A stretch of DNA of 64,000 bases from Paraburkholderia ginsengiterrae. Lineage in GTDB: Bacteria > Pseudomonadota > Gammaproteobacteria > Burkholderiales > Burkholderiaceae. Where the stretch lies: positions 124,001 through 188,000 of the forward strand of contig NZ_LXKA01000382.1 of NCBI RefSeq assembly GCF_001645125.1, given 5' to 3'. This document shows, piece by piece, positions 46,681 through 64,000 of this stretch. How positions within the stretch are numbered: the first letter of the stretch is position 1; every line of letters starts with the position of its first letter. The position numbers and the translations under genes are program-made. Below the pieces are notes generated by a model. It ran no database searches, was not told where the DNA came from, and saw nothing but the letters and a program-made list of their open reading frames with translations.

Positions 46681-46890
46681 TTAGGTTTTGCGCTGCATGG
46701 CCGCCTTGACAATGGTCTGATGAGCCGCGGGGAACCCGGGCGGGTATTCCACCACGCGTGCCGAAGCCGGCACCAGTGGCGCGGCGACATTAAGGCGCGC
46801 GCCGATGCGCGCACCGCCGACTATGGCCGCCATCGCTTGACGGTCCAGTTCGACGCTGTCCGTGAGGTCCTTGATGATGAGCTTGGCCAT
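46681..46890 (-). CDS. double-glycine leader peptide precursor 1 (43-aa cargo)
   Basis: 69 residues. The leader MAKLIIKDLTDSVELDRQAM-AAIVGG is 26 residues, ending in Gly-Gly at 25-26. The cargo ARIGARLNVAAPLVPASARV then VEYPPGFPAAHQTIVKAAMQ is short, Pro/Ala-rich and basic. It differs from the other three precursors in lacking the Asn-rich repeats. AGGAG is five bases before the ATG. The leader matches the type cleaved by C39 peptidases, and an exporter of that class is encoded at 61107. Not a known family by name. Confidence 0.75.
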   Translation of the reverse strand: MAKLIIKDLTDSVELDRQAMAAIVGGARIGARLNVAAPLVPASARVVEYPPGFPAAHQTIVKAAMQRKT

Positions 46891-47097
46891 GGAGGCTCCT
46901 ACAAAGAAATCGAGCGGCCGGCCGGGGTGATGCTCCGGTCGCCGCTCGGGTGTGTCGTGAAGTGTGCAGAGGTCTCGTCGCACTATCAGTATAGGAAACA
47001 GGCTTGCCGCTTGCCGGCTGATTGCGACGCGGCTTGCGACCCGGCTTGCGACGCGGCGGCAGTAGGGAAGTCCCCCGGCCCTTGCTACCGCCGGCCG

Positions 47098-47382
47098 TCA
47101 CACGAAGGCGTTATTGGAGCCCCACAGCGCCGGGCTGACGTTCAGATTGGGCGGAATGAAATTCGCGCCGATCACGCCGATGTTATTGAGTGCGGCCACG
47201 TTCACGTTTTGCGTCTGGATGAGGTTCTGGTTCACGGAGACGTTGATGTTGGCGAGGGTGCCGAGACCGGCCAGGGAAGGCAGGCCGGGCACGCTGCCGC
47301 CGGTGCCGCCGGCCACCGCCGACATGGCGCGGCGGTCGAGCTCGCGAGTGCTGGACAGATCGCGAATCATGAGGGATGACAT
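47098..47382 (-). CDS. double-glycine leader peptide precursor 2 (68-aa cargo)
   Basis: 94 residues. Leader MSSLMIRDLSSTRELDRRAM-SAVAGG, Gly-Gly at residues 25-26. The cargo is Gly/Asn/Val-rich: TGGSVPGLPSLAGLGTLANI then NVSVNQNLIQTQNVNVAALN and NIGVIGANFIPPNLNV. The alternating N/V pattern suggests beta structure. No Cys. GGAG is seven bases before the ATG. It is the middle gene of three tandem precursors; predicted to be cleaved after Gly-Gly and exported. Confidence 0.75.
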   Translation of the reverse strand: MSSLMIRDLSSTRELDRRAMSAVAGGTGGSVPGLPSLAGLGTLANINVSVNQNLIQTQNVNVAALNNIGVIGANFIPPNLNVSPALWGSNNAFV

Positions 47383-47426
47383 GGTGATTCTCCAAAAGTG
47401 CGCGGAAGACGGGCGTGCTCAGCGGG

Positions 47427-47461
47427 AGGCGAAGCGGGCCGGCGAGCCGGACGCTTCGCCT
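47427..47461 (-). terminator. hairpin between precursor genes 3 and 2
   Basis: AGGCGAAGCG and CGCTTCGCCT form a perfect 10-bp stem around a 15-base loop, starting just after the stop of precursor 3. It may act as an attenuator or mRNA-stability element, so that precursor 3 is made in excess. Confidence 0.55.
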
Positions 47462-47470
47462 GGGGGTGCC

Positions 47471-47749
47471 TTACACCTTGATGTTGTTGCTCGTGTTGAC
47501 GCAGGGGTTGATCGTCGAGGTAATGCAATTGGCGAGCGCGACGTTGTTGCCGTTGGCGTTTTCGATGTTCACTCCGCCGGTGATGAACTGGGAGGCGGTA
47601 ACCGTCTTGCTTTCGTTCGGCGCGTAGACCGGGCTGAAGTTGAAGTACGACGTCGGGTAGCCGTAGCTGTAGCCGCCGCGCACGGCGCTCATGGCGCGGC
47701 CGTCGAGTTCTTCGGTGATGGACAGGTCTTTGATCATCAGCGTGTTCAT
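47471..47749 (-). CDS. double-glycine leader peptide precursor 3 (66-aa cargo)
   Basis: 92 residues. Leader MNTLMIKDLSITEELDGRAM-SAVRGG, identical to that of precursor 4 at 54065. The cargo starts with an aromatic block, YSYGYPTSYFNFSPVYAPNE, then SKTVTASQFITGGVNIENAN and GNNVALANCITSTINPCVN, with two Cys in the last part (NCITSTINPC), which could form a disulphide. AGGAG is seven bases before ATG 47749. It has its own sigma-54-type promoter at 47824 and is probably the first gene of the three-precursor unit. Confidence 0.78.
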   Translation of the reverse strand: MNTLMIKDLSITEELDGRAMSAVRGGYSYGYPTSYFNFSPVYAPNESKTVTASQFITGGVNIENANGNNVALANCITSTINPCVNTSNNIKV

Positions 47750-47802
47750 GGCAAATCTCCTGGAAGGAATGGTCGCAGTCTTGCGGTGGGTTTCGAGCAA
47801 CT
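47660..47802 (-). repeat. 143-bp inverted repeat, left copy
   Basis: By my reading, identical on the - strand to 54012-54154 on the + strand. It covers the upstream region, ribosome-binding site, complete leader and first cargo codons (YSYG) of precursor 3. Similarity with scattered mismatches continues outward to about 47865. The two copies are in opposite orientation, 6.2 kb apart. Confidence 0.85.
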
Positions 47803-48080
47803 TGTCTGCTCGTACGTCACTAACGCATGGGCCGTGCCAGTCTTATTCAAGGTTCCTAAGAAAATTGCAGATGGCTTGATGCACAAGGCTTTCATGCGGG
47901 CCACCAAGGTTGCGCACGGTCTGCCGCCGCGCATCACAGGTACTCGGCTGACGGCGCACACCCGACAGACCCTGGCGGGCTGTTGGCTCACGCACGACAC
48001 CCGCGTGCTACGCGGGCAGCGGGGCAATCCTGGTTTGCGAAAGGGCGGGCCGGGGACTAGTATCGAAACGGCACATGTAA
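47750..48080. other. 331-base divergent promoter region, precursor 3 / kinase
   Basis: No gene. It contains most of the upstream half of the inverted repeat, a sigma-54-type element at 47824-47839 and, towards the kinase, GC-rich sequence with no clear sigma-70 promoter. Confidence 0.5.
47824..47839 (-). promoter_or_regulatory. sigma-54-type -24/-12 promoter of precursor 3
   Basis: On the - strand TGGCACGGCCCATGCG: the -24 block TGGCACG is perfect and the -12 GC is at the required distance (consensus TGGCACG-N4-TTGCW; here A replaces the first T, and the last base is G). The ATG is 75 bases downstream. The same element stands before precursor 4. Confidence 0.6.
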
Positions 48081-50321
48081 ATGGCTACGACAGGTTTTCT
48101 ATCGGCCCGAGAGGTTGCGGTCGCGTGCGATCCGGCCCAACGGCAGCGGCGGCGCTTCGCACAAATGGCTAGCCTTGCGCGTGTGATTCACGACTTTCAG
48201 AACGGCGAGCTGTCCCGTGACGAGTTCGTGGCTCAACTCGACAGCACGTTGACGACGGAAGGACTCGCTCCTACCCAGCTGCTGGAGATGCTCGGCGCTG
48301 CGCATCGCAAAACACCGCTACCCGACGATCTCTACGTGGAAGTGCGGCGGCGCATCGAACAGTTGCGCGTCTCGAACGTGGCGGCGGGGGGCGACGAAAC
48401 CGGTCTTCAGACCACGGTCGAAATTCCATCGGTTCGCTCGGCCAGTACGGGCAGCGCGGGTAGTGCGGCCAACGCGCCAGGCACCGCCGACGCGGCCGGA
48501 CACGATCAGATCAAAGGCACCGGCGACACGCTGAACAACCGCTTCGTTCTCGAAGAGTGTCTCGGCGTGGGCGGCATGGGAACGGTGTACAAGGCGCTCG
48601 ATCTGCGCAAGCTCGAGGCTTCGGACCGCAAGCCGTATCTCGCGATCAAGGTGCTCAACCTCCAGTTCCGCGGCAATCCGAATTCGCTCGTCGCGTTGCA
48701 GCGCGAGGCGCGCAAGGCGCAGGTGCTTGCGCACCGCAACATCATCACGGTCTACGACTTCGACCGCGACGGGCCCATCGTCTATCTGACGATGGAGTAC
48801 CTGTCCGGCAAGCCGCTCAGCCAGTTGCTGCGCACGCCCGGCTACCAGGGCATGCCGGTGCGCGCCGCGTTGCCGATTGTGCGCGGCATGTGCAGCGCGC
48901 TTGCCTACGCACACGAACGCGGCTTTGTTCACTGCGATTTCAAGCCCGCCAATGTATTTCTCACGACGAATGCCGAAGTGAAGGTGATCGACTTCGGCAT
49001 CGCACGCGTGTTCCAGCGGCCGGAAGAAGAGAGCGACGCCACCGTGTTCGACCCCGGCAGCCTCGGCGCGCTGACGCCGGCGTATGCCAGCCCGGAAATG
49101 ATCGAGCATCGCGAGCCGGACCCGCGCGACGACATCTACGCGCTTGGTTGCATCACCTACGAGCTGTTGACCGGCCATCATCCGTTCGACCGCCTGTCGG
49201 CGACGCAGGCACGTAATGCCGATTTCAAGCCGCAACGGCCGGCCAATCTCGATGCGAGGCAGTGGCGCGCGTTGCGTGCCGCGCTGTCGTTCGATCGCAA
49301 TACGCGCATGCCGAGCGTGACGCGCTTCATCGCCGAGTTCGACAACGAGGCGCGTGCGGAGAAGTCGGGCACGCTGGCGAAGGTGGGGCTTGCGAGTCTC
49401 GCCATGGTGTGCGCGGCGGCGGTCGGTGTGTTCGCGCTGCGCTCCGCGCCGAACCGGCAGGGCGGTTCGCAGACCAATGCGGGCGCTTCGCAGGCTTCGG
49501 CGGAGCAGGCGGCTTCGTCTTCCGCGGTGGAGGGACCGGTCTCGGCGCCGGCGCCTCTTGCGGCGCTTCCGGCGGGCCCTGCTACGGCACCACCCGCGCC
49601 ACCTGCTTCGCCTGCATCGCCAGTGGTACCGGCACCCAAGCCGGCGCTGACGCTGGCCGCGGTGACCCCGGTGTTGGCGCAAGTGCCCTGTTCGGCGCTG
49701 TCCGCTTCGACCCAGGATCACTCGCTGACGGTGCGTGGCTACGTTTCGCAGCGCTACGGCGCGGCGCATCTTAAAGACACGCTGGGCACGTTGCCGGGTG
49801 TCGATACGCTGGCGCTCAACGTGGAGCCGGTCGCCGACGACAAGTGCGACACCATCAAGGCACTAGCGCCGTACTGGATTCACAACTGGCAGGCGGGCCA
49901 CGTTGCGGCTTTACACGTTCGGCCGCCCGGTGGGCAGCTGAGCGATGGCGACCCGCTGGTCGTCGACGTCACCACGCCGGGATACGATTCTTATGTAAAC
50001 CTCGACTACTATCAGCTCGACGGCAGCGTCGTGCACATGGTGCCGAGCCCGCGCGCGAAAGATAATCAGGCGCCGCCGCACTACGCGGCCACCATTGGCA
50101 GCGCGGGCGACTGGGTCATTTCGAAGCCATTCGGATCGGAGATGGTCGTGCTGCTGATCACGCCGGCGCCGCTATTCGACAAACCGCGGCCCGAAAGCGA
50201 ATCGCGCGCCGATTATCTACGTGCGCTCGACGCGCGGCTTACGCAAATGGGTGGCAAATACGGCCGCGATCGTATCGTTGCCGATTTCGCGCCGATCACG
50301 ACGAAGCCACGCACGCCTTGA
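48081..50321 (+). CDS. membrane Ser/Thr protein kinase, non-RD type
   Basis: 746 residues. An N-terminal helical segment (residues 1-120) precedes the kinase domain: Gly-rich loop LGVGGMGTVYKA, Lys190 in YLAIKVL, catalytic loop HCDFKPAN (His284-Cys285-Asp286 instead of His-Arg-Asp), and Asp304 in the DFG of VIDFGIAR. The P+1 and APE-like segments are TPAYASPEMIEHREPDPRDD. One helix (VGLASLAMVCAAAVGVFAL, about 436-455) leads to a periplasmic Ala/Pro-rich linker and a DUF4384-like end (DGSVVHMVPSPRAK). No ribosome-binding site at 48081; in-frame ATG 48165 is possible. It stands between the precursor genes of the secretion locus. Confidence 0.88.
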   Translation: MATTGFLSAREVAVACDPAQRQRRRFAQMASLARVIHDFQNGELSRDEFVAQLDSTLTTEGLAPTQLLEMLGAAHRKTPLPDDLYVEVRRRIEQLRVSNVAAGGDETGLQTTVEIPSVRSASTGSAGSAANAPGTADAAGHDQIKGTGDTLNNRFVLEECLGVGGMGTVYKALDLRKLEASDRKPYLAIKVLNLQFRGNPNSLVALQREARKAQVLAHRNIITVYDFDRDGPIVYLTMEYLSGKPLSQLLRTPGYQGMPVRAALPIVRGMCSALAYAHERGFVHCDFKPANVFLTTNAEVKVIDFGIARVFQRPEEESDATVFDPGSLGALTPAYASPEMIEHREPDPRDDIYALGCITYELLTGHHPFDRLSATQARNADFKPQRPANLDARQWRALRAALSFDRNTRMPSVTRFIAEFDNEARAEKSGTLAKVGLASLAMVCAAAVGVFALRSAPNRQGGSQTNAGASQASAEQAASSSAVEGPVSAPAPLAALPAGPATAPPAPPASPASPVVPAPKPALTLAAVTPVLAQVPCSALSASTQDHSLTVRGYVSQRYGAAHLKDTLGTLPGVDTLALNVEPVADDKCDTIKALAPYWIHNWQAGHVAALHVRPPGGQLSDGDPLVVDVTTPGYDSYVNLDYYQLDGSVVHMVPSPRAKDNQAPPHYAATIGSAGDWVISKPFGSEMVVLLITPAPLFDKPRPESESRADYLRALDARLTQMGGKYGRDRIVADFAPITTKPRTP

Positions 50322-50397
50322 CCGCAACGGCGGCGGCATCGATAACGTTCAGAGAACCAGAACCGGCCATGCTTCCCGCCGTGCACCCCCTCGCACG

Positions 50398-52419
50398 TCA
50401 CCTGAGATCCTTGACGACCCGCACGCCATCCTGCGATTGACGCACGCCGGCGCTGTACTTGAAGCGTGTGGCGCTCAGCATGTAGCCGCCGCCTTCGCGC
50501 CACGAACCGCCGCGAATCACGCGCATGTCGCAGCCGGGGCTGTCCCACGCGTGGCCGTCGGTGGGCGCGCCCTGGTAGGAGTTGTGCCAGCAGTCGGCGG
50601 TCCATTCCCAGACGCCGCCGTTCATGTCGTACAAGCCGAGCGGATTCGGTGCGAACGAGCCGGCGACTTCGGGTCCTTCCTTGTGCCACGGATCGCCGCA
50701 GTCCTTGCAATTGGCGTTGCCTTTGCGCATCTGGTCGCCCCACCAGTAGGCGGTGGTCGTGCCGCCGCGACCCGCGTATTCCCACTCCGCCTCCGTCGGC
50801 AGGCGGTACGGCTTGCCCGTGGTCTTGCTCAGCCATTTCACGTACTGCTGCGCATCGTCCCAACTGAGATCGCGTGCCGGGGCGGCCTTGTTGGTGTTGC
50901 TCTCGGGTGTCAGCTTCTGACAAGCGTTGGCGGCCACGCACGCATTCCATTGATCGACGGTGACAGCGTATTTGCCGATGGCGAATGGCGCGCCGATGCT
51001 CACGTGATGAACGGGCTTCTCTGACGGATCGTCGGTGCTGCTGCCCATTGAAAACGAGCCGGCGGACACGGCGATCATGATCGGGCAAGTGGCACAGTCA
51101 CGGCTCTCGCCGGCTACCGGTGGGTGCGTGATGGGTTTTTGCGCGACAGCTGTGATGGCCGCGGCGGGCGGAGCGGCGGGCCCGGGGGCAGGTGGGGCCG
51201 CGCTCACAGCGGGTTTGGGCGTGGTGACCGGATGCTCCTGCGCAGCGGGACTGGCCGACGCGGCAGGTGTGGATGGTCGCACGGCCGCCTGCGCGGGCGC
51301 GGCTGAAGGTGCGGCGGGTGTCGCCGCGGACGGCGCAGTCGAGCTTGCCGCCGCGCGCAAGCGGTCGATGCGCGCATGAGCGAGCGCGGCGAAGCGGCCA
51401 TTCGGATAGGCCTTCAGATACGCCTCGTAATCGGCGGGGTAGTTGCTGTCCTTGATCGAATTCCAGAAAGCGATTTCGTATTGTTCGCTGCTGTCTTTCG
51501 GCAGAATGCCCCGGCTGTGCAGCGTGACCACGGAGTCGTTCTGAAGCGCAATCGCCGCATTCGAATCGGGCGACGGCGAGTGGAGCGACGAAGCCGCCCA
51601 CGGCATTTGCCTGCCGTCAGTCACCTCGCGAACCTGTAGCGCGACGCGTTGCAGCAGGGCAGCGAGCGTCTGCGACGGAGTCGTGTCGAGCGCATGCAGC
51701 CATGCATTCGTGTAGATGCCGTGGCGCATGCCGTCCGCGGCAAAACCGCCAGGCGCTGTTGCGTAGGCAATCACGGTATTGCCTGGAAGCGCAGACGTAT
51801 CGATCGACGCATCAGGCGAGAACGGATTGTTCAGACACGTATCGAGGATCACCAGATTGAGCTGACCGTCACGCGCCGCGCGCATCGCCTGCAATACCGT
51901 ATTCAGGTCGACGCCCTCGCGCACGAGCGTTGCGGGTGAGCGCGAGTCGAGTCCGGCTGGAATGAGCAGCGTCTGCTGGCCGATCCGCATGCCGTGTCCC
52001 GCGAAATAAAACAGACCGGTACCGCCGGCTTGCAAGCGCTGATGAAATTCGCGGATGGCTTCCCGCATTTGCCCGGGCGTAGCATCGGTGCGTGCAATCA
52101 CGTCGAAGCCGAGCGTGCGCAGCCGGTCACGCATGGCTTCGGCGTCGCGCGGCGCATTCCCACGGAGCGCATTGGCCTGCACGTCAGCGCGATTCGCACC
52201 GTACGCGCCGTTGCCGATCACAAGCGCGATGCGTGGGGAAGGCCCGGGATTGCGCTGTGGGGCGAACGGCGTGAGCAGCGAACTCCTGGGGTTCGCCGCT
52301 GCCGTGCTGGCCATGCCAAGGCCAGCGTCAGCGCCGCTGCGTTGCGCCGCGGCATGGACATCGCCGCCATGTGCCTGAATTGCCCCGGCCACGCACACCA
52401 GCATGAATATTCGCCACAT
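50398..52419 (-). CDS. secreted caspase-like peptidase fused to an FGE/SUMF1 domain
   Basis: 673 residues. Signal peptide [20 protein letters not shown], then a caspase-like (C14) domain: [12 protein letters not shown], catalytic His142 in [12 protein letters not shown] and Cys195 in [13 protein letters not shown] Pro/Ala-rich linker (about 375-490) joins an FGE-sulfatase (SUMF1/EgtB-type) domain: [50 protein letters not shown] and [15 protein letters not shown] is eight bases before ATG 52419; an in-frame extension to 52572 lacks a signal. This fusion is known from other proteobacteria, but its target is unknown. Convergent with the kinase gene; both probably belong to the secretion locus. 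Confidence 0.88.
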
Positions 52420-52786
52420 CTTCACATCCTGTTTGTTCCGGACAGAACATAGGCATTCGAGCATCGCGATACGCCCGGCAACAGCCCGAGCCAATCGTGT
52501 GAAGCATCGATGCCGCCATCGATCATCCATCCGCGACCTATTAACAACGATAGCACGCGTGGTGCGCGCCACAAACGTTAGCGTGTCCTGAATGCTCCAT
52601 ACGGTTAACGACCGTGGCGTATCTTTTTGGCAAGTTACGTCCTAAGCTAATTCACAAAGTCAGGCGGCCCGGTCGTTTTAACTACGCGGCCGTTCGATTG
52701 CACGTGTGCCAGCGACATCCAGCCGCAACGCCCGGCCTGTCCCGTGCAGCCGAGGTGGCCACGACCGCTCTTCGGGAGAGTGCGCT
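52420..52786. other. 367-base divergent promoter region, caspase / DUF4399
   Basis: No gene supported; small ORFs on both strands overlap without ribosome-binding sites. It must contain both promoters. On the caspase side TGGCGCG-N4-ACGC (around 52560, - strand) has the spacing of a sigma-54 element but a poor -12 block, so I do not list it as a promoter. Confidence 0.4.
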
Positions 52787-53302
52787 ATGCGAAGAAATCC
52801 CACCCCCGTTGTTCCCAATCTGCCTCATCGAGCAACCGCGGGAGCGCCCGCGCGGCGCGCCGTGCTGCGCTCGGTGTGGCGCACCGTGGTCGTTGCGGCC
52901 ATCGGCAGCGTGATGCCGTTGCGCTTCGCGCTGGCCGAGCAAACGCCGTCGCCGCCGGGCGCCGAGGAGTACATCATCTGGCCAGCCGATGGCGCTGTGA
53001 TTCATGGCGGCAAGCTGTGGGTCCGCATGGGCCTGCGCAACATGGGTGTGTGCCCGAAAGGCATCGCGCATCCGAACACCGGGCACCACCATCTGCTGAT
53101 CGACACCGACCTGCCGGCGCTCGATCAGGAGATCCCATCGGATCGTAATCACCTGCACTTCGGCGCCGGTGAGACGGATGCGCGTATCGAGTTGCCGCCG
53201 GGCAAGCACACGTTGCAGCTCATTCTCGGCGACCACAATCATGTGCCGCACGTGCCGCCGGTGTATTCGAAGAAGATCACCATCACGGTGCTGAAAGACT
53301 AG
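52787..53302 (+). CDS. DUF4399 protein, signal-peptide-bearing (copy 1)
   Basis: 171 residues. A long N-terminus (about 45 residues, RRAVLRSVWRTVVVAAIGSV then MPLRFALAEQ) is consistent with a signal peptide ending before TPSPPG. The DUF4399 domain follows: IIWPADGAVIHGGKLWVRMG, NTGHHHLLIDTDLPALDQEI, SDRNHLHFGAGETDARIELP and GKHTLQLILGDHNHVPHVPP. The His clusters (GHHH, RNHLHF, DHNH) suggest metal binding. GGGAGAG is six bases before ATG 52787. Upstream of a paralogue. Confidence 0.88.
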   Translation: MRRNPTPVVPNLPHRATAGAPARRAVLRSVWRTVVVAAIGSVMPLRFALAEQTPSPPGAEEYIIWPADGAVIHGGKLWVRMGLRNMGVCPKGIAHPNTGHHHLLIDTDLPALDQEIPSDRNHLHFGAGETDARIELPPGKHTLQLILGDHNHVPHVPPVYSKKITITVLKD

Positions 53303-53349: not shown

Positions 53350-53784
53350 ATGTACAAGATCATCGCAGTCGCGGCGCTCGTTACGTGGGCGGCGTTGGCG
53401 TCGCCGGTTGCCGCCGTGGCGGGTACCACGCCGGCGCCGGCCCGCGCCCTTGCCTATATCGGCTATCCGAACGACGGCCAGGTCGTGCCCGCCAATAAAC
53501 CGTTTCGCGTGTGGTTCGGCCTGCGCTACATGGGCGTGGCGCCGAAGGGTGTCAAGTATCCGAATACCGGCCACCACCATCTGCTGATCGACACCGATCT
53601 GCCGCCGATGGATCAGGAAATTCCGTCGGACCGCAATCATCTGCACTTCGGCGCGGGCGAAACGGAAACCATGATTCAGCTGCCGCCGGGCAAGCATACG
53701 TTGCAGTTGCTGATGGGCGACGATATGCACATGCCGCACAATCCGCCCGTGTACTCGAAGAAGATCACCGTCATTGCGCGATGA
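53350..53784 (+). CDS. DUF4399 protein, secreted (copy 2)
   Basis: 144 residues. Signal peptide MYKIIAVAALVTWAALASPV, cleaved after AVA. Domain: YIGYPNDGQVVPANKPFRVW, NTGHHHLLIDTDLPPMDQEI, SDRNHLHFGAGETETMIQLP and MGDDMHMPHNPPVYSKKITV. Very close to copy 1 in the domain (shared GHHHLLIDTDLP and SDRNHLHFGAGET blocks), so the pair is a tandem duplication. 47 bases after copy 1; likely co-transcribed. Function unknown. Confidence 0.88.
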   Translation: MYKIIAVAALVTWAALASPVAAVAGTTPAPARALAYIGYPNDGQVVPANKPFRVWFGLRYMGVAPKGVKYPNTGHHHLLIDTDLPPMDQEIPSDRNHLHFGAGETETMIQLPPGKHTLQLLMGDDMHMPHNPPVYSKKITVIAR

Positions 53785-53974: not shown

Positions 53975-53990
53975 TGGCACAGCCCATGCA
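53975..53990 (+). promoter_or_regulatory. sigma-54-type -24/-12 promoter of precursor 4
   Basis: TGGCACAGCCCATGCA: the -24 block is TGGCAC and the -12 is TGCA, with the exact 16-base frame of the sigma-54 consensus. It ends 74 bases upstream of the ATG at 54065. The second copy at 47824 differs at only two of 16 positions. Confidence 0.6.
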
Positions 53991-54011: not shown

Positions 54012-54154
54012 AGTTGCTCGAAACCCACCGCAAGACTGCGACCATTCCTTCCAGGAGATTTGCCATGAACACGCTGATGATCAAAGACCTGTCCATCACC
54101 GAAGAACTCGACGGCCGCGCCATGAGCGCCGTGCGCGGCGGCTACAGCTACGGC
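54012..54154 (+). repeat. 143-bp inverted repeat, right copy
   Basis: Identical by my reading to the reverse complement of 47660-47802. Contains the ribosome-binding site and leader of precursor 4 and the upstream leader mRNA. A short dyad in the untranslated region (CGAGCA...TGCTCG, ending at 54020) is shared in both copies apart from one base in its loop. Weaker similarity extends outward to about 53947. Confidence 0.85.
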
Positions 54155-54358
54155 AGCTACTGCTATCCGTCGCCGTCGTATTTCAGCTTCGACCCGGTCT
54201 ACGCGCCGAACCAGGGCAAGACGGTTACCGCCACCCAGTTCATCAGCTCGGCGGTGAACATCCAGAACGCCAACGGCAACAACACGGCATTGGTCTCCGG
54301 CATCACGACCACGATCGACCCGCATGTGAGCACGAGCAACAACATCACCGTGCGCTAA
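54065..54358 (+). CDS. double-glycine leader peptide precursor 4 (71-aa cargo)
   Basis: 97 residues. Leader identical to precursor 3 (Gly-Gly at 25-26). The cargo opens YSYGSYCYPSPSYFSFDPVY then APNQGKTVTATQFISSAVNI, QNANGNNTALVSGITTTIDP and HVSTSNNITVR. It shares the aromatic block and the VNIxNANGNNxAL segment with precursor 3, but it has one Cys near the start instead of two near the end, and a six-residue longer N-terminal part. AGGAG is seven bases before the ATG. Followed by a hairpin at 54371. Confidence 0.78.
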   Translation: MNTLMIKDLSITEELDGRAMSAVRGGYSYGSYCYPSPSYFSFDPVYAPNQGKTVTATQFISSAVNIQNANGNNTALVSGITTTIDPHVSTSNNITVR

Positions 54359-54370
54359 CCGGCGCCGGCC

Positions 54371-54582: not shown

Positions 54583-56091
54583 GTGTCAGCGTTGCTTGAA
54601 TCAGCGGTCCGCCAGCGCTTCTTCCGCAAGACATCGGCGCTGCGTGGCGAGTCGGATCGAGCGTTGCGCGCGGTCAAAAGCACCGCGGCGCTGCGCGCCG
54701 TTTGTGCGGTAGTGGTTTGCGCAGTCTCGCTGTCCGCCTGTATCGACGTCAGCATGCCCGACTACAAGCGTCCTGACACGCCCGCCAAAGCGTCGTGGTC
54801 GAATCAGAAGGGCGCACCGGTGTCGGCTGCCGCGACGATCGAACCCGATTGGTGGAAAGGCTTCCACGATCCCTATCTCGACGAACTGATTGCGAAAGCG
54901 ATTGCGGGCAACTTCGACATCAAGGTGCTGGCCGCGCGTATCGACGTTGCCCGCACGCAGATCGGCGAGGCCAAAGCGGGCGCGCTGCCAACCATGGACC
55001 TCGGCGCGGGCGCCGACTTCGAAAAGACCACGGGCCAGACGTTCTCCAAGCAGTACAACCTCGCGACCCAGGTGAGCTGGGATATCGACATCTGGGGCAA
55101 AGTCGAAAAAGGCGTGCAGGCCCAGAAGGCGGAGTTTCACGCCAGCGAGGCGGATTGGCGCGCCGGCTACCTCGAGTTGGTGTCGAACGTTTCCAGTACC
55201 TATTTCCAGATTCTGCAGTTCGACGACCAGATCGACCAGCAGCAGAAAACGCTCGAAACGAACCGGCAGATTCTCACCATCTACGAAGGCCAGCGCCGCA
55301 GCGGACTCGTGCCGCAAACGCAGGTGTTGCGCCAGCAGGCCGAGATTAATCGCCTGACGAACGAGTTGCTCGAACTGCGCCGCTCGCGCGCGCTTGCGAA
55401 CAACGCGCTTTGCACGCTGACCGGCGTACCTGCCGGCGAGTTTCAGATGCCCACAGGTCATTTGCAGCAGCGCGTGCAGTTGCCGCCCGTGCCTGAAGGC
55501 TTGCCGGCGCAACTGCTTGCGCGGCGTCCCGACGTGGTGGCTGCGGAATTCCGCGTGCTGGAAGCGTACAACCTCGTCGGCGAAGCAAAGCTCGCGCAAT
55601 TGCCGACCATCAACCTGACCGGGCACGGCGGCACCGCGAGTTTCGCGCTGACCGACTTGCTGAAGTCGTTCACGTACGGCTTCATGCCCAGCATCAATAT
55701 TCCGCTGCTCGATCCCGGTGTGCGGGCGCATGTGAAGGTCACCCAGGCGCAATCGACGGTGGCCGAGCAGCAGTACCGCGTGGCGGTGATGGGCGCCTTC
55801 GAGGAAGTGGAGAACGCGCTGGTCAATCTGAATTCGCACAAGGCGCAGCGTGTGGAATTGCAGCAGGAAGTGTCGCGGCTGCAAATCGTCGCGGACCAGA
55901 TTCAGTCGCAATTGCGGCTTGGCGTGGTGTCGCAACTGGAAGTTTTCGAAACCGAGCGAACCTTGCTGGAAGCGCAACAGCAACTGCTTGCCAACCATCA
56001 ACTGCTGCTGTCCGACACCGTGCTGCTCTACAAGGCGTTGGGGGGCGGCTGGCCGAACGTCGACGTGCAAGCCGAAGTAAAGGAGCACTGA
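54583..56091 (+). CDS. NodT/TolC-type outer-membrane channel lipoprotein
   Basis: 502 residues. A lipobox (VSLSAC, Cys about residue 50) follows a long N-terminus. Two outer-membrane-efflux-protein repeats with long helices: LIAKAIAGNFDIKVLAARID, ELVSNVSSTYFQILQFDDQI, YEGQRRSGLVPQTQVLRQQA, and PVPEGLPAQLLARRPDVVAA, LDPGVRAHVKVTQAQSTVAE, EVENALVNLNSHKAQRVELQ. This matches the RND/NodT lipoprotein family. It forms the outer-membrane duct. The GTG start at 54583 has GGAG seven bases upstream. First of five secretion genes in a row. Confidence 0.92.
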   Translation: MSALLESAVRQRFFRKTSALRGESDRALRAVKSTAALRAVCAVVVCAVSLSACIDVSMPDYKRPDTPAKASWSNQKGAPVSAAATIEPDWWKGFHDPYLDELIAKAIAGNFDIKVLAARIDVARTQIGEAKAGALPTMDLGAGADFEKTTGQTFSKQYNLATQVSWDIDIWGKVEKGVQAQKAEFHASEADWRAGYLELVSNVSSTYFQILQFDDQIDQQQKTLETNRQILTIYEGQRRSGLVPQTQVLRQQAEINRLTNELLELRRSRALANNALCTLTGVPAGEFQMPTGHLQQRVQLPPVPEGLPAQLLARRPDVVAAEFRVLEAYNLVGEAKLAQLPTINLTGHGGTASFALTDLLKSFTYGFMPSINIPLLDPGVRAHVKVTQAQSTVAEQQYRVAVMGAFEEVENALVNLNSHKAQRVELQQEVSRLQIVADQIQSQLRLGVVSQLEVFETERTLLEAQQQLLANHQLLLSDTVLLYKALGGGWPNVDVQAEVKEH

Positions 56092-56319: not shown

Positions 56320-58893
56320 ATGACCACCGGCGAAGCTCCGATTGCTGAGATGCGCGCGACAATGGACGCCGCGTTCGACGTGGTGTTGTCGCCGGTTGCG
56401 TCGGCGCAGGGACCCGCGCTCGACGCGATCCGGATCGTCGACAGCCTGTTTGCGATCGGCCGCAGCGAGGCGCCGTTTACCGACTACCCATCCGAGCGGA
56501 TTGCGCGCCTGTCCCGCCGGCATGCGCGGATTTTCACGGAACACGGCGCGGTCTACGTCGCCGACCTCGACAGCAAGAACGGCACCACGGTCAACGGCGT
56601 CGCGGTGCGGCAAACGCCGGCCCGCGTGCGCGCCGGCGACGAACTGTGCTTTGGCGGCGAACTCTGCTACCGGGTGGCGATCGAGCCGCGCGCGCGCATT
56701 GTGGCGGCGGCCAAGTCACCCGCTGTGCCAGGCCTGCTGCTCGTGCCGGAACGCGATGACCTCGGCCTGCAGCCTATCGAGGTGCAGGCGTTTCCGTTTC
56801 TGGTCAGCAAGACGGACGAGATTTTCGCGCGTTACAAAGATCGCTATCCGCACCAGGTCAACTACATCTCCCGGCGCCACGCACACCTCTTTCTGAAGGG
56901 TGGCGAACTCTATGTCGAAGATCTCGGCAGCACCAACGGCACATTCGTCGGGGGAAAGCGCCTGGCTGAATCCGCGCTGCCGTTGGTAGAGGGAGACTGT
57001 GTTGCATTTGGCGGAGACCACTTCGTCTACAGGGTGACGCTGCAGAGCGCCCCTGAAGTCGAGCCTACCGTGACCCAGCTATTTCTCAAGCCGGCCGTCG
57101 ACGAAACCGGCGATGCCGACAAGACGACGTTCGTCGGCGCCGCGCATTCGTTCCTCGATATCTTTTGCGTGGACCCCGTGCTGTTGCGTGAAGACGAAGT
57201 CAACGAAGCGGCTCAGTCCGCCGACGAGCATGGCGGCGCGGCGAGAGGAGCGAGCGGTGCAAATGGTGCAAACGGCACAAACGGCGCGCATGGACCCGCC
57301 CCTACTGGTTCCACGAAGCGCCGCCCGCGACGTTGGCGGCTGCTGGCGGGCGAACTCAGCAAGGCTCTCGCGGTTGACGATCGCGCGAGCGTGCGGCGCT
57401 TCGCGTGGTGGGGCGCCGCGGGTGTCGTGCTGCTGGTGGTGTTCGCGTCGACACTCTATCTGCGTGGGTCGTCGGAACGCGAGGTGAAGAATCTGCTGAC
57501 AAATGGCGACTACGGCAGTGCGGTCGCGGCGGCCACGGGCTATCTGGCGAGTCATCCCGCGGACACAAGAGTCAGCGCGCTCGCCAGTGAGGCGCTCCTG
57601 AAGGCGAAACTCCCTGGGTGGCTGAATGCGCTGGACAAGGCGCAGTTCGCTCAGGCGGATGCCTTCCTCAACGAGATGAGATCACTGAGCGCGAATAACG
57701 CGGACGCCGCCTCGCTCATCAGCGAACTGCAATGGGTGGGCGATCTGGAGCGCTTCGTGGCGGGACGCGGCGGCGTGGACGCGCCGATCCGCATGTACGT
57801 GGACGAGGCCACCATCGGCAACCTGCTGCAACGCTGGGACGACGACGCGAAAAGCCATCAGCGCGCGCTCGACCGGATCGCGACCTACGTCCCCGTGTTT
57901 GCCGAACCGTACGCACAGGCGATGAGCCATCTGCGCAAACTGGAGAGCGACGATTCGGTGTATCTCGCCGCCATCGACCGGCTGAACGGAACGATCCGCA
58001 CCGAACTGGCGCGCGACAAACCCGGCGCGCTGCCTCCCGTGCTGGACGATTACGGGCAACGCTATCCGCGGCTGGCGGGTCTCGACCGCGTGCGTGAGGA
58101 TTTGCGGCAGTACACGGACGTGTTGAACGCCGCGCTTGGCCGTCAATTGATCCCGTTGCTCGCCTTGCTGAAATCGGTGCATCTCACCACACCGCCGTTT
58201 CAGGCGCAGTTTCAGCAGCTGACGGCGATCCGTTTGCCATCCCCCGACATCATTGCGCGTCACGACGCGGTGACGGCTGCATGGCAGCGCGGCGACGCAC
58301 AGCAGGCGCTGGCTGGTTTGCAAGACATGCCTGCCGGTCCGTGGTCCGACGTGCTCGCGGCGGAACTGGCGCACAAGAAGGCGCTGCTCGATCAGTTCAG
58401 CGAGTTGCAGAAGACGCGCGGAGACAAGGATTACGACCAGCGCTTGCTGTCGTTTTACGCCAGTCTCGACCCGGCCATCGACGTGTGGTTCGCGCAGTCG
58501 ATCCAGAAAGACGTGGCCGCGCTGCACGACAAGGCGCTGGCGCGTGCGCAAGATCTCATGCTGCGCGCCCAGAGCCTGTGGAAGCAGTACCGCGCGAGCG
58601 GCTCGATTGGCGGCACGCAACGGCTCGAAGCCGGGATTTCGCCGGGATTTCGCAGCGAGGCGCGGCTGCTGTCCGACGCGCAAACGTCTGCGCAACAGGG
58701 CATGCGCATCTACACGCAGCTCAAGGCCGATCATCCCGCGGACTTTGACCGCCTGCTCGCGGATATCGATGCCGAAGCCGATCTGCAACGCCGTTCGTTG
58801 ACGGAACTGCGCATGGTGCTGGACCCGGGGCTTCTGAAAGCGAAGCTGGCACTGATTGGAGGCGAGCAGAGTGAAGCGCGACAGTCACCCTAA
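56320..58893 (+). CDS. double-FHA inner-membrane protein
   Basis: 857 residues. Two FHA domains: the first with GRSEAPF, RLSRRHARIFTEHGAVYVAD and LDSKNGTTVNG; the second with ISRRHAHLFLKGGELYVEDL and GSTNGTFVGG. Both contain the phosphothreonine-binding Ser-Arg-Arg-His and Asn-Gly-Thr elements. A linker rich in Gly/Asn/Ala (GASGANGANGTNGAHG) leads to one helix (FAWWGAAGVVLLVVFASTLY, about 365-385). The remaining 470 residues are a helical, TPR-like periplasmic domain. It is probably a phosphorylation-sensing scaffold for the exporter, with the kinase at 48081 as the likely partner. No strong ribosome-binding site; start tentative. Confidence 0.85.
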   Translation: MTTGEAPIAEMRATMDAAFDVVLSPVASAQGPALDAIRIVDSLFAIGRSEAPFTDYPSERIARLSRRHARIFTEHGAVYVADLDSKNGTTVNGVAVRQTPARVRAGDELCFGGELCYRVAIEPRARIVAAAKSPAVPGLLLVPERDDLGLQPIEVQAFPFLVSKTDEIFARYKDRYPHQVNYISRRHAHLFLKGGELYVEDLGSTNGTFVGGKRLAESALPLVEGDCVAFGGDHFVYRVTLQSAPEVEPTVTQLFLKPAVDETGDADKTTFVGAAHSFLDIFCVDPVLLREDEVNEAAQSADEHGGAARGASGANGANGTNGAHGPAPTGSTKRRPRRWRLLAGELSKALAVDDRASVRRFAWWGAAGVVLLVVFASTLYLRGSSEREVKNLLTNGDYGSAVAAATGYLASHPADTRVSALASEALLKAKLPGWLNALDKAQFAQADAFLNEMRSLSANNADAASLISELQWVGDLERFVAGRGGVDAPIRMYVDEATIGNLLQRWDDDAKSHQRALDRIATYVPVFAEPYAQAMSHLRKLESDDSVYLAAIDRLNGTIRTELARDKPGALPPVLDDYGQRYPRLAGLDRVREDLRQYTDVLNAALGRQLIPLLALLKSVHLTTPPFQAQFQQLTAIRLPSPDIIARHDAVTAAWQRGDAQQALAGLQDMPAGPWSDVLAAELAHKKALLDQFSELQKTRGDKDYDQRLLSFYASLDPAIDVWFAQSIQKDVAALHDKALARAQDLMLRAQSLWKQYRASGSIGGTQRLEAGISPGFRSEARLLSDAQTSAQQGMRIYTQLKADHPADFDRLLADIDAEADLQRRSLTELRMVLDPGLLKAKLALIGGEQSEARQSP

Positions 58894-60244
58894 ACCGTTG
58901 TCGGAGGCGCTGGAGGACCACAGCGTCGAAGGCATCGCCATTCTCACCGCGGAACCGGTGCGGATCGCGCGCGCGCTCATCTGGGCGATGGTCGCGCTGG
59001 TGGTGGCCGGGCTGCTGTGGTCGTTCGTCGGCCGCGCGGATGTGATCGTCAGCGCGCAAGGCACGTTGTCGCCGGAATCCGAGGTGCGCCGCATCTATGC
59101 GCCGATCGACGGTGAACTCGCCGATCTGTATATCGCCGAAGGTCAGCCGGTGCAAAAAGGCGATGTACTGGCACGGCTGAATGCGCGCGGTGCGATCGAA
59201 GCGGCGAGCAATGCGCTGCAAGCGCAACTCAAGCTGGAGGACGCCGAGCGCGACTGGAAGCAGTTTCCGGAGAAGAAGGCGCTGATGGTGCGCAAGGCCG
59301 CCGCGCTCAAGGCGCAGATGGAGGTGGAAGCGCGCCAGCACGAAAACCGCGTGTCCGAGGGCACGACCAAACTCGCTGAAGGGCAGAAGGCCGAACTCGA
59401 CGAAGCGCGCAGCGCGCTCGACAATGCCCGCCGCACGCGCGAGGCGGCGCACCAGGAACTGGATCGCTACTCGCAGCTTTTTGCGCAACCAGGCGGTGGC
59501 GGCATTGCCGGGCTGCAGGTGGAGCAGAAGCGCACCGCGGCGCTGGAAGCGGACAACGCCTACCGCGTCGCGCAATCGAAGCTGGCGGAACTGGATTTCC
59601 GCCTGAGCCACGAATATGCGCTGGCTAACGCACAACTGGAAACCAGCGGCCAGCAGACTACCGACCTGCAGCTTCAGTACGATTCGGCGGTGCGCGACAT
59701 TACCGACGCGGAAGACAAAGTGCGCTTGCAACTGCAAACCGCGCGACTGGTGGCGGACGCTGCCGCGCGGATTCGCTTCGAGAACATCGACAAAGACAAT
59801 TTCCTGCTGATCCTCGCACCGGTTTCAGGTGTCATCACAGACGTCACGTCGACACAACGCGGTGACAAGATTCAGGCGAATGCGCCGCTCGGCGGCATTG
59901 CGCCGAAAGACGCGCGGCCCGTGCTGAAAATCGAAATCGCCGAACACGATCGTGCTTTTCTGCACGAAGGCCTGCCGGTCAAGCTGAAGTTCAACGCGTT
60001 TCCGTATCAGCGCTATGGATTGATCAGCGGCACGCTTGCCTACATTTCGCCCGCCACCAAGCCGTCGTTAGCCGACAAGCAACCCGTCTACGAAGGCCGC
60101 GTCACGCTCGACAAGAATTACTACCAGATTGCCGACACGCGCTATCCATTGCGTTATGGCATGACGGCAAGCGCGGAGATCGTGGTGCGCGAGCGGCGCC
60201 TGATCGATCTGGGTCTCGATCCGTTCAGGCAGGTGGCGGGTTGA
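58871..60244 (+). CDS. HlyD-family membrane fusion protein
   Basis: 457 residues. One inner-membrane helix (ALIWAMVALVVAGLLWSFVG) is followed by a lipoyl half-motif (IYAPIDGELADLYIAEGQPV), a long coiled coil (about residues 110-290, including LDNARRTREAAHQELDRYSQ) and the second half-motif (ILAPVSGVITDVTSTQRGDK) with the HlyD_3 barrel (KFNAFPYQRYGLISGTLAYI). It bridges the exporter and the outer-membrane channel. GTG 58871 has GGAGG eight bases upstream and overlaps the FHA gene by 23 bases. An earlier in-frame start is at 58856. Confidence 0.92.
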   Translation: MKRDSHPKPLSEALEDHSVEGIAILTAEPVRIARALIWAMVALVVAGLLWSFVGRADVIVSAQGTLSPESEVRRIYAPIDGELADLYIAEGQPVQKGDVLARLNARGAIEAASNALQAQLKLEDAERDWKQFPEKKALMVRKAAALKAQMEVEARQHENRVSEGTTKLAEGQKAELDEARSALDNARRTREAAHQELDRYSQLFAQPGGGGIAGLQVEQKRTAALEADNAYRVAQSKLAELDFRLSHEYALANAQLETSGQQTTDLQLQYDSAVRDITDAEDKVRLQLQTARLVADAAARIRFENIDKDNFLLILAPVSGVITDVTSTQRGDKIQANAPLGGIAPKDARPVLKIEIAEHDRAFLHEGLPVKLKFNAFPYQRYGLISGTLAYISPATKPSLADKQPVYEGRVTLDKNYYQIADTRYPLRYGMTASAEIVVRERRLIDLGLDPFRQVAG

Positions 60245-60281
60245 CCGCGCGAATAACACGTCAATTAAAGGAGCCGATGAG

Positions 60282-61034
60282 ATGAGCGCGATTGTGCGAA
60301 TCGATGACGAAGTCGTGGACGTGGCCGAGTTCATTCGTCTTCTGAAATTGACCGGCCAGTTCGAGAGCCTGATCGAGCAGATCGTGCGCGACAAGCTCAC
60401 GGTGCACGCGGCGAAGAAGCAGGGCATTACCGTTAGCGCCGACGACATACAGGAGCGCGCCGACCAGTTTCGCCGCGTGCGCGGCCTGCATCGCGCGACG
60501 GATATGAACCAGTATCTCGACGCGCTTCATGTCAGTCTCGACGAATTCGAGGCCTTCATCACCGACGGGCTGTATCAGGAGAAGATGCTCGACGAGATCG
60601 GCAACGACGCGGCGATCAAGGACTACTTCGCGCTGAATTCACCGAAGTTCGATGCGATCGAGGTAAGCCACATCGTGCTGGACAGCGAGGGCAAGGCGAA
60701 GGAAATGATCTCGTACCTGCACGACGATCCCGATAGCTTCGCCGACATGGCGCGCGAGCATTCGATTGCGGATACGCGCGAGGCGGGCGGCGTGATCGGC
60801 AAGGTGCTGCGCGGTTCGCTGAAGCCGGACATCGAAGCGAAGATTTTCAATGCGGCGGTGGGCGACCTGCTGGGGCCGTTTCCGTCGGCGGACCGCTCGT
60901 GTTTCGAGATCTTCGCCGTGACGGCCAAATATCCGGCCACGCTCGATGCGGATGTGGCTGCCGAGATCAGACGGCTGCTGCGCGAGAGCTGGCTGATCGC
61001 GCGCGCTCAGGAACACGTGATCGAAGCGCGCTAG
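60282..61034 (+). CDS. parvulin-type peptidyl-prolyl isomerase
   Basis: 250 residues. The N-terminal helical part (LTGQFESLIEQIVRDKLTVH, GITVSADDIQERADQFRRVR) resembles the SurA/PrsA-N chaperone fold. The rotamase domain contains IEVSHIVLDSEGKAKEMISY, FADMAREHSIADTREAGGVI and VGDLLGPFPSADRSCFEIFA. No signal peptide, so it acts on the cytoplasmic side. Isomerases of this type are also found beside C39 exporters in cyanobacteria. It may present the leader or cargo to the exporter (inference). Confidence 0.85.
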   Translation: MSAIVRIDDEVVDVAEFIRLLKLTGQFESLIEQIVRDKLTVHAAKKQGITVSADDIQERADQFRRVRGLHRATDMNQYLDALHVSLDEFEAFITDGLYQEKMLDEIGNDAAIKDYFALNSPKFDAIEVSHIVLDSEGKAKEMISYLHDDPDSFADMAREHSIADTREAGGVIGKVLRGSLKPDIEAKIFNAAVGDLLGPFPSADRSCFEIFAVTAKYPATLDADVAAEIRRLLRESWLIARAQEHVIEAR

Positions 61035-61106
61035 CCGGATAGCGAAACACACCATACGCCACACCAGGTCCACGCAACGATACGCTGAATCGAGGTCCGC
61101 AAGCCC

Positions 61107-64000
61107 ATGGACGCCCCCCAAACCGCGCCTTCCGCAGCCGAGTTTCTAGCCTCGGTGGAAATTCTGTCGCCGTTCTCGCGCGATGAGATCGAGCGTCTCG
61201 CGGAAGATGCGCAAGCGCGTTTCTACTCGTTCGGAGAAACGGTCTGCTCGGCGGGCGAAACGGCGGACGGCCTCTACGTGATTCGCTCGGGTTCCGTGCG
61301 TATCTTCAGGGAGGAGCACGGGAAGGAAACCAGCATGGGCGTGCGCAAAGCGGGCGAGATATTCGCCGACATCGCCATGTTGCGCACGTATGTTCACGAA
61401 GCGTCGGTGCGGGCGTCGGCGAAAACCGAGCTGCTGTTCATTCCGCGCACCACGATCGAACCGGTGATAACCGGCAATCAGGCCGCGTTGGCGTTTGTCG
61501 CCAGCTATGTCGCGATCAATTCGGCGGGCGGTTTCGTCGCGCAACTGTTCGATCTGCGCGGCAAACTGAACAAGGCGGAACTCGAAGAGTATGTGCGCAG
61601 CGTCGGCGTAAAACGCGTGGCGGCGGGCAAGGAAATTCTCAAACAGGACGGACGCGAAGACCGGCGGCTGTACGTGGTGCGCCAGGGCGCAGTGCGTATC
61701 GTGCGGCACGAGGAGGGCCACGACTATACGCTCGCCACGCTCGGTGAAGGCGAGATATTCGGCGAGAAAGCCTGCCTGATGCGCCAGGAGCAGATGGCGT
61801 CGGCCGTGGCGGCGACCGACACGCGGCTGCTGGTGATTCCGGAGCGAACGGTCCACTTCATTCTGGAGCGCAATCCCAAGCTGCGTGAAGTGCTCGACGA
61901 GCGGATTCGTTACGGCGACCGCGAGTTGCAGCGGCAAAAGCGGCTCGAACAGCGGCGCAAATTGCCGCTGATGCTCGACTTGCAGAGCCAACCGGGGTTG
62001 GGCGAGAAAGTCATCAAACGCTTCGCGCTGGTCGAACAGGCGGAGGAGATGGATTGCGGCGCGGCGTGCCTCGCGATGGTGTGCCGCCACTACGGCATTC
62101 CGATGACGCTCGGCAAATTGCGCGAACTCGCCAATGTGACGACCCAGGGCGCGACGCTCGACAGCCTCGCCCGTGCGGGCGAATCGCTCGGATTCACGGC
62201 GCGCGGCGTGCAATGCACGTTCGATTCCTTGCGCGGCTTCGATCTGCCGTTCATCGTGCATTGGGAGGGTTACCACTACGTGGTGGTGTACGGACTCTCC
62301 AAAGACTATGTGTGGGTCGCGGACCCGGCCGTCGGTTTCAAGAAAATGACCGTCGAGGATTTCGAGCGCGGCTGGAGCGGCACGTGCCTGTTGTTCACGG
62401 GCGGCCCGCATCTGCTGCAAATGTCCGCGGCCCGTTCGCCGTGGATACGCTTTGTCGGCTACCTCAAGCCGTACAAAAAGATACTCGGCTACCTGTGTCT
62501 CGCCACTTTCGTGATTCAGGTGTTGGGCGTGATTCCGCCGCTGATTATCCAGAACATACTCGACGGCGTGATCGTGCATCAGAACGTCAGCCTGCTGCAC
62601 TTGCTGATAGGCGGCCTGATTATCGCCAATGTCTTTTCGCAACTGATGTCGTCGATACGCGCGTATCTGGCGAATTTCATGGTGCGGAACATGGACTTTG
62701 CGATGATGTCGCAGTTTTTTAAGCACACCATGTCGCTGCCGTTTTCGTTCTTCGCCAAGCGCAAGACCGGCGATATTTTCGCGCGCTTCCAGGAAAACCA
62801 GACGATCCGCGCGTTCCTCACCGAATCCACGGTCACTACCGCGCTGAATCTGCTGATGGTGTTCATCTACTTCACGATCATGTTCGTCTACAACGTGAAG
62901 ATGACACTGGTGCTGATCGCGTTCGTCATTCCGATCATGGCGCTCACTGCGCTCGCCACGCCGAAGATAAAAAGCTATGCGCGCGAGGTGTTCGCGGCGT
63001 CGACCGAATCGAAGTCGTTTCTGATGGAGGCGCTCGCCGGCGTGGAGACCGTCAAGGGCATGGGCATCGAGCGGCCGGTGCGTCTGCGCTGGGAGAAGAA
63101 GTACGCGAAAGCACTCGAAGTGCAATATCGCGCGCACGCGTTCAACATTCTCGTAGGCTTGGGCAGTCAGTTGCTGAACGCCGCCACCACGATCGCCATT
63201 CTCTGGGTCGGCGCGACGCTCGTACTAGCGCGTGAAATGACGATTGGCCAGCTGATCGCGTTCAACGCGTTCATGGGGAGCGTATTGGGTCCGCTGATGG
63301 GACTGGTCGGTTTGTGGAGCATGGTGAACGATGCGGGCGTGGCAATGGAGCGCCTCGGCGACGTGCTCGACATCGAACCCGAGCAGAAGCCGCAGGATTT
63401 GCCCTCGCGTGTGATGCTGCCCGAACTGCAAGGGGAAATCAGCCTCAGTGGCGTCTATTTCCGTTACGGTGAAAGCGACTCGGCCTACGTGCTCGAAAAC
63501 ATCAGTTTCGACATCAAGCCCGGCGAGCTTGTGGCGATTGTCGGGCGCAGCGGGTCGGGCAAAACGACGCTCGCCAAGTTGCTGGTGGGCTTTTATACGC
63601 CGACCGAAGGCAAGATGACCATCGACGGCTACGATCTCGGCGTGGTCGATAAAGCCTATTACCGCGCCCAGATCGGCTACGTGATGCAGAGCAACCTGCT
63701 GTTCTCCGGCACGATCGCGGAGAACATCGCGAGCGGCGACGATGCGCCCGAGCGCCGCCGCATCGAGGAAGTCGCGAAGATGGCCGACGCGCACGCTTTC
63801 ATCAGCAAGATGCCGCTCGGCTACGAACAGATTGTCGGCGAGCGGGGTATCGGGCTGTCGGGCGGGCAGATCCAGCGGCTGTGCATTGCGCGCGCGCTGT
63901 ATCACGATCCGCGCCTGCTTGTCTTCGACGAAGCGACCTCGGCGCTGGATTCCCAGTCGGAAAGCAATATCCTCGGCAATATGCACGACATTCTGAAGGG
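61107..64000 (+). CDS. C39 peptidase-containing ABC exporter with two cNMP-binding domains (3' end cut)
   Basis: 964 codons visible. Two cyclic-nucleotide-binding-like domains come first: GLYVIRSGSVRIFREEHGKE (about 50-70) and LYVVRQGAVRIVRHEEGHDY (about 190-210), each followed by GE-IF segments. A C39 peptidase domain has Cys317 in EMDCGAACLAMV, His390 in EGYHYVVVYG and Asp406 in VADPAVGF, the complete triad. Six helices follow (ILGYLCLATFVIQVLGVIPP and others), then Walker A GRSGSGKTT near residue 813, LSGGQIQRLCIARAL and [12 protein letters not shown]. It cleaves leaders after Gly-Gly and exports the cargo. Layout resembles HetC-like exporters of cyanobacteria. Window ends before the H-loop. 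Confidence 0.93.
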   Translation, partial: MDAPQTAPSAAEFLASVEILSPFSRDEIERLAEDAQARFYSFGETVCSAGETADGLYVIRSGSVRIFREEHGKETSMGVRKAGEIFADIAMLRTYVHEASVRASAKTELLFIPRTTIEPVITGNQAALAFVASYVAINSAGGFVAQLFDLRGKLNKAELEEYVRSVGVKRVAAGKEILKQDGREDRRLYVVRQGAVRIVRHEEGHDYTLATLGEGEIFGEKACLMRQEQMASAVAATDTRLLVIPERTVHFILERNPKLREVLDERIRYGDRELQRQKRLEQRRKLPLMLDLQSQPGLGEKVIKRFALVEQAEEMDCGAACLAMVCRHYGIPMTLGKLRELANVTTQGATLDSLARAGESLGFTARGVQCTFDSLRGFDLPFIVHWEGYHYVVVYGLSKDYVWVADPAVGFKKMTVEDFERGWSGTCLLFTGGPHLLQMSAARSPWIRFVGYLKPYKKILGYLCLATFVIQVLGVIPPLIIQNILDGVIVHQNVSLLHLLIGGLIIANVFSQLMSSIRAYLANFMVRNMDFAMMSQFFKHTMSLPFSFFAKRKTGDIFARFQENQTIRAFLTESTVTTALNLLMVFIYFTIMFVYNVKMTLVLIAFVIPIMALTALATPKIKSYAREVFAASTESKSFLMEALAGVETVKGMGIERPVRLRWEKKYAKALEVQYRAHAFNILVGLGSQLLNAATTIAILWVGATLVLAREMTIGQLIAFNAFMGSVLGPLMGLVGLWSMVNDAGVAMERLGDVLDIEPEQKPQDLPSRVMLPELQGEISLSGVYFRYGESDSAYVLENISFDIKPGELVAIVGRSGSGKTTLAKLLVGFYTPTEGKMTIDGYDLGVVDKAYYRAQIGYVMQSNLLFSGTIAENIASGDDAPERRRIEEVAKMADAHAFISKMPLGYEQIVGERGIGLSGGQIQRLCIARALYHDPRLLVFDEATSALDSQSESNILGNMHDILK

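Follow-up and report, generated by a model that had tools for sequence, protein, structure and literature searches.

Gene content and extent of the locus

The 8.53-Mb draft genome of Paraburkholderia ginsengiterrae (RefSeq assembly GCF_001645125.1) contains a locus of about eighteen genes and about 21 kb, in which small precursors with double-glycine (Gly-Gly) leaders are encoded together with a peptidase-containing exporter and a series of putative regulatory proteins. The window considered here is a stretch of 64,000 nucleotides, positions 124001-188000 of contig NZ_LXKA01000382.1, and the coordinates given below count from its first letter. An initial annotation of the window had proposed that it holds a complete locus dedicated to Gly-Gly peptide secretion. 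The dedicated character of the locus is strongly supported by the evidence assembled below and is, in our judgement, very likely. However, the window does not hold all of the locus, since the exporter gene overruns the window end by 163 bases and five further genes lie outside; their products are a sigma-54 activator and a PP2C phosphatase, another precursor (the fifth), a protein with an LRAT domain and a conserved 83-amino-acid protein.

Four precursors with a shared 26-residue Gly-Gly leader are located in the window, as had been annotated, and each has a GGAG-like stretch upstream of its ATG. Three of them form a run on the minus strand that is headed by type A1 (47471-47749; 66-residue Asn-rich mature part) and continues with type B (47098-47382; 68-residue Asn-rich mature part) and type C (46681-46890; 43-residue cationic mature part). 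The fourth, type A2 (54065-54358, plus strand), has a 71-residue Asn-rich mature part, and the fifth, type D (66323-66610, minus strand), likewise has a Gly-Gly leader and lies outside the window. The annotated machinery between and around the precursors was also borne out by Pfam. On the plus strand, a NodT-type outer-membrane channel (54583-56091; Pfam OEP, with the NodT model over cut-off) is followed by a protein that has two FHA domains at its N-terminus, a single predicted membrane span and a long C-terminal part (56320-58893), by an HlyD-type adaptor (58856-60244) whose start is uncertain and whose gene overlaps the FHA gene, by a parvulin-type (PpiC) isomerase, or rotamase, that has no predicted membrane span and matches TIGR04500 below cut-off (60282-61034), and by the exporter itself (61107-64163, in the window to 64000), which comprises two cyclic-nucleotide-binding (cNMP) folds, a C39 peptidase domain, and ABC membrane and ATPase domains. 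The activator gene (64160-65518, plus strand) overlaps the exporter end, and its product, a sigma-54 AAA activator, has the GAFTGA motif; the PP2C gene follows at 65547-66326 on the minus strand.

A Ser/Thr kinase (48081-50321, plus strand) was recognized from Pfam, its motifs and its co-occurrence with the exporter, with hydropathy pointing to one membrane span; a DUF4384-like match to its C-terminus stays below cut-off. Next to it lies a fusion of a caspase (C14) domain, with His and Cys motifs, to an FGE-sulfatase domain (50398-52572, minus strand, start uncertain), and then two DUF4399 proteins, a (52787-53302) and b (53350-53784), both on the plus strand and both assigned by Pfam. Beside precursor D are the LRAT-domain protein (67053-67589) and the 83-amino-acid protein (67644-67895), both on the plus strand, the latter having no Pfam match; each of these two is present at 9/16 named loci. 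The caspase-FGE, DUF4399 and LRAT proteins may have roles in the same peptide system.

Leaders, exporter and their co-occurrence

The exporter has the features of a peptidase-containing ABC transporter (PCAT/AMS) type I system, in which a C39 domain and the ABC membrane and ATPase domains form one fusion protein. Its C39 Cys/His/Asp and ATPase motifs are intact, and the HlyD adaptor and outer-membrane factor of such a system are both present in the locus. The precursors conform to the same system in having a Gly-Gly leader with hydrophobic residues at -4, -7 and -12. According to the portion consulted of a report on C39 recognition (PMC6363468), the rule for ComA substrates is made up of these three positions together with Glu at -8. 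The three hydrophobic residues occur in 106/106 Gly-Gly precursors, i.e. all those with Gly-Gly among 114 precursors that had themselves been found with a leader model. The C39 domain would cut the precursors after Gly-Gly, and the peptides would leave the cell via the ABC exporter, HlyD and the NodT channel, with the rotamase probably keeping the precursors export-ready in the cytoplasm.

Within the own genome, the leader profile matched the five precursors with E values from 1e-18 to 3e-15, which are circular because the profile was built from these same five sequences. A non-circular test was given by other genomes of the same genus. There, the first 430 residues of the exporter gave at least 566 bits in 24/35 genomes, the other 11 having weak C39 or cNMP matches only; leaders were found in all 24 exporter-bearing relatives and, at E 0.001, in 0/11 of the genomes without exporter. 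With the threshold relaxed to E 1 or better, all 25 exporter genomes (own included) had between 3 and 15 leaders each, and 10/11 exporter-less genomes had none, the eleventh having a single match at E 0.35. The leaders are not scattered, as 78 of the 79 same-genus matches listed lie no more than 22.9 kb from an exporter, and the remaining one is on another contig of its genome (G023). Gene content around the exporters of the 24 relatives is similarly constant: channel, FHA protein, HlyD, rotamase, exporter and activator are each present in 24/24, the kinase in 23/24, and the caspase-FGE protein, DUF4399a, DUF4399b, PP2C, LRAT and 83-amino-acid proteins each in 22/24. Where parts are missing, the contig ends early (G018 and G023), or PP2C and LRAT are not contained in the stretch examined (G019).

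The association extends across the family. Among 300 Burkholderiaceae genomes, the exporter is present in 105, about a third of the sample, spread over 8/25 genera, and the leader profile matched 105/105 genomes with the exporter versus 5/195 without it (110 in total); since at most 28 candidates were scored per genome, the leader matches per genome are lower bounds. The Fisher values for co-occurrence (1e-75 and 7e-12) overstate independence because the genomes are related. In a sample of 398 genomes from across the phylum, there were three strong exporter matches, all in Burkholderiaceae, along with seven distant cNMP-C39 relatives at 30-34 % identity and six matches over C39 only. Among named carriers, leaders are present in Paraburkholderia kirstenboschensis (for example strain LMG 28727), P. 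rhizosphaerae, P. elongata (for example strain 5N), Caballeronia glathei, C. sordidicola, C. grimmiae, Trinickia soli and Burkholderia stagnalis. Of 16 named loci scanned, 12 have leaders, and no leader was found at L112 (Skermanella, with a distant exporter), L122, L124 or L126. One of these, L124, from a metagenome-assembled gamma-proteobacterial genome, combines adjacent relatives of the channel and the FHA protein with a PP2C match; it has no precursor and was not counted.

Some further occurrences may be recorded here. Two unlinked frames in the P. ginsengiterrae genome, L199 (G000:C353:21253) and L200 (G000:C311:42602), show leaders that match less well (E 2e-5 and 6e-5) and cores that differ; they are perhaps cargo encoded elsewhere. 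In one smaller genome (G008; L081, L082), the match to the exporter is split in two and one precursor is broken, which gives the impression of a decaying locus. The only other Pfam C39 match in the P. ginsengiterrae genome is a stand-alone peptidase at L203 (G000:C222:254000-272000), encoded amid sigma-54 activators and secreted proteins rich in repeats, in a region that looks like a Fap-type amyloid operon.

Candidate control of precursor genes and secretion

Sigma-54-like sites precede the genes of particular cargo types. Within the 37.9 kb of the own locus, three of the four best sites lie 87-90 bp upstream of A1, A2 and D, including TGGCACGGCCCATGCG (47824-47839, minus strand), which is 90 bp before A1 and conserved in relatives, and TGGCACAGCCCATGCA (53975-53990, plus strand), 90 bp before A2. 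Over the whole precursor set, a site scoring at least 12.5 lies within 250 bp upstream of 38/39 type A, 21/23 type D, 2/14 type B, 0/24 type C and 2/10 type E genes and 4/4 fragments, that is, of 67/114 precursors overall versus 1.5 % of 3000 random stretches. Types B and C are downstream of A on the same strand. Because the sites are conserved and the activator gene overlaps the exporter end, sigma-54 control of the cargo genes is likely, and the activator encoded directly behind the exporter would be the protein that drives them.

Membership of the kinase in the peptide system is supported by its distribution and, above all, by what happens when the locus is split. It was present in 45/45 exporter-bearing genomes that were examined from seven further genera and picked from 75 such genomes, and in 0/11 exporter-less genomes of the same genus, which are all of that kind; some of the matches are split in two, and two contain a stop. 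Distances between kinase and exporter were analysed for 20 of the 45 genomes. In one genus (g34), the kinase is often far from the exporter. In six g34 genomes, namely those with a listed leader near the kinase and with kinase and exporter on one contig, the two genes are 103 kb to 1.05 Mb apart and the leader is 355-476 bp from the kinase, and in three more the kinase and exporter are on different contigs, with a leader 362-749 bp from the kinase. That kinase and precursor stay together where kinase and exporter part is, in our view, the best argument for a role of the kinase in the peptide system, and the co-occurrence upholds this part of the annotated grouping.

The membrane kinase, whose C-terminal part is predicted to lie on the outside, would together with PP2C and the membrane-bound double-FHA protein most likely form an on-off control of secretion that works through Ser/Thr phosphorylation, and such control we rate as slightly better than even. 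A comparable arrangement is the threonine phosphorylation pathway PpkA/PppA/Fha of type VI secretion, in which, according to the part of the account consulted (PMC3953482), a kinase and an FHA protein, with a PP2C partner, control the secretion machine post-translationally. The same three kinds of protein are present together here; unlike in that pathway, however, the machine is of type I, and none of ten locus proteins scanned has a type VI domain. If phospho-control is real, gating by Ser/Thr phosphorylation, as in type VI systems, would extend to type I exporters. Two short segments are possible phospho-threonine sites: residues 267-273 of the FHA protein form a D-x-TTFVG segment that does not vary between five aligned relatives except at x, which is K or R, and PP2C has a DKTLLNP stretch at its C-terminal end. 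The two cNMP folds of the exporter resemble, by sequence, those of cyclic-nucleotide-dependent kinases, and the cNMP fold of HetC binds ppGpp in vitro, as stated in the part of its description consulted (PMC10986499).

Known relatives, nature of the cargo and competing explanations

The annotated grouping had been thought undescribed, and this seems to hold for one part of it only. In cyanobacterial groups I, II and VI, as far as the consulted portion of Wang et al. 2011 (PMC3140520) describes them, a CAP_ED-C39-ABC exporter is encoded with HlyD and a rotamase (SurA), with Gly-Gly precursors nearby, so that novelty of the grouping as a whole is not supported. Shared with those clusters are the nucleotide-binding fold before C39 and ABC, the HlyD protein, the rotamase and the nearby precursors; by the same partial account, the present locus differs in having two cNMP folds and a NodT channel in the locus, as well as the kinase, PP2C, double FHA, caspase-FGE, DUF4399, LRAT and sigma-54 activator genes. 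The exporter also resembles HetC of Nostoc in joining a cNMP fold, C39 and ABC, whereas the section consulted on hetC reports no Gly-Gly precursor or membrane-fusion gene near it (PMC10986499). Set against the cyanobacterial core (PMC3140520, as consulted in part), the wrapping of kinase, phosphatase, FHA and sigma-54 parts, together with the Asn-rich cargo, looks new. Searches of open-licence literature, which did not cover the 2004 screen for Gram-negative Gly-Gly peptides, showed no description of this combination among the papers listed.

Types A, B and D are alike in composition: their mature parts average 65-69 residues, with 3-10 % charged residues, a net charge near -1 to 0 and 15 % Asn, where 14 other proteins encoded in the region have 1.4-3.9 % Asn. 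Profile comparison of the mature parts gave a weak relation of A to D (58 % probability) and of B to D (66 %), with 3 % for A and B, and C and E came out as unrelated. The five own precursors had no Pfam or NCBIfam match over cut-off, models of the cyanobacterial NHLP and Nif11 (N11P) precursor families included, and matched known bacteriocin families below cut-off only; no precursor type, E included, had a family model over cut-off, and no phage record resembling A2 was found. The best analogue for the cargo, in terms of function, would be EbfG/PteB of Synechococcus elongatus, in which several small Gly-Gly proteins (EbfG1-4) are likewise accompanied by a C39 transporter. The portions consulted of the two reports on this system (PMC4997328, PMC9981879) state that EbfG1-3 form amyloid and that efficient EbfG secretion needs the C39 Cys, and contain no mention of a kinase/PP2C/FHA/sigma-54 set. 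By analogy with EbfG, the most likely fate of the A, B and D peptides is assembly at the cell surface or within the matrix, and the locus probably builds something outside the cell; that these three types are specifically surface or matrix cargo, a suggestion drawn from composition and analogy, falls just short of being probable.

Taken as a whole, the locus is best explained as a regulated type I system that exports surface or matrix peptides and works like EbfG/PteB, an explanation to which we give an even chance; we infer that all of the parts act together. If it is true, the cargo, promoters and sensor are already named for testing. A fuller version, in which a type I exporter with its own phospho-switch, a non-canonical cNMP sensor that maybe reads ppGpp, and sigma-54-driven self-assembling cargo form a regulated extracellular-polymer system across the Burkholderiaceae, is doubtful.

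Other explanations keep the same export machine and change the purpose of its cargo. That the peptides are bacteriocins or contact-dependent toxins directed at related bacteria would suit the pairing of Gly-Gly leaders with C39 exporters, which is typical of bacteriocins, the cationic type C, and a cargo that is variable and amplified in one relative. It would also suit several matches below cut-off, namely Bacteriocin_IIc with type E (E 0.014), lactococcin G-beta (0.08) and ComC (0.28) with type D, and TIGR04149 with A2 (0.16). No family match rises over cut-off, however, the near-neutral, Asn-rich composition of A, B and D argues the other way, and a crude scan of the precursor gaps recognized no immunity gene, although the conserved 83-amino-acid protein beside D is unexplained; on balance this explanation is unlikely. 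Gly-Gly peptides also include signals such as the ComC-type pheromones, and the peptides could be picked up by the producing strain or by its kin, with the outer domain of the kinase beside the A precursor as a possible sensor. The predicted span and outside C-terminal part of that kinase, and its staying beside a leader when the locus is split, are in keeping with sensing, but at 65-69 residues the mature parts exceed what is usual for pheromones, and there are several types per genome with no dedicated receptor identified, making a signalling role improbable.

A different kind of alternative is that the genes for the kinase, FHA and caspase-FGE proteins happen to lie beside the export genes, and that these proteins serve another purpose, such as defence, and do not contribute to peptide export. 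Such domains are widespread, the PADLOC kinase models PD-T4-6 and mad6 match the kinase domain strongly while the caspase and PP2C models match weakly, and the separation of kinase from exporter in g34 might be read in the same sense. Yet the kinase follows both presence and absence of the exporter, it adjoins a leader after splitting, and the FHA gene, which sits directly before that of HlyD and overlaps it, is present in all 24 relatives, so that independence of these proteins is very improbable.

Several findings nevertheless weigh against all or part of the favoured explanation, that of regulated type I export of surface or matrix peptides. Position -8 is Ala in 92/106 precursors, and not Glu as in ComA substrates. 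All five genomes with leaders and without an exporter are from g34, one of them holding an exporter fragment (62 % identity) and the other four nothing close; conversely, L122, where the contig ends near the exporter, and L126, from a Cupriavidus sp., have the exporter core and no leader within the stretch scanned. Sigma-54-like sites in the own locus do not exceed chance, with four at a score of at least 12.5 versus 4.3 expected, and an unrelated one ties in score with that of A1, so only the place and conservation of the sites count; a search upstream of the promoters for a shared palindromic activator site found none common to groups. In both cNMP folds, the phosphate-loop Arg is seemingly absent, as read off an alignment. 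Type C, cationic and about 47 residues in its mature part, is unlike a matrix peptide, AlphaFold models of types A and D are of low confidence (pLDDT 52 and 35) with no confident fold, and the case for a matrix function is one of composition and analogy.

Lastly, cargo amplification is apparent in one relative (G001), where ten near-identical short type E precursors are arranged in a tandem row at L065, 15007-18706.

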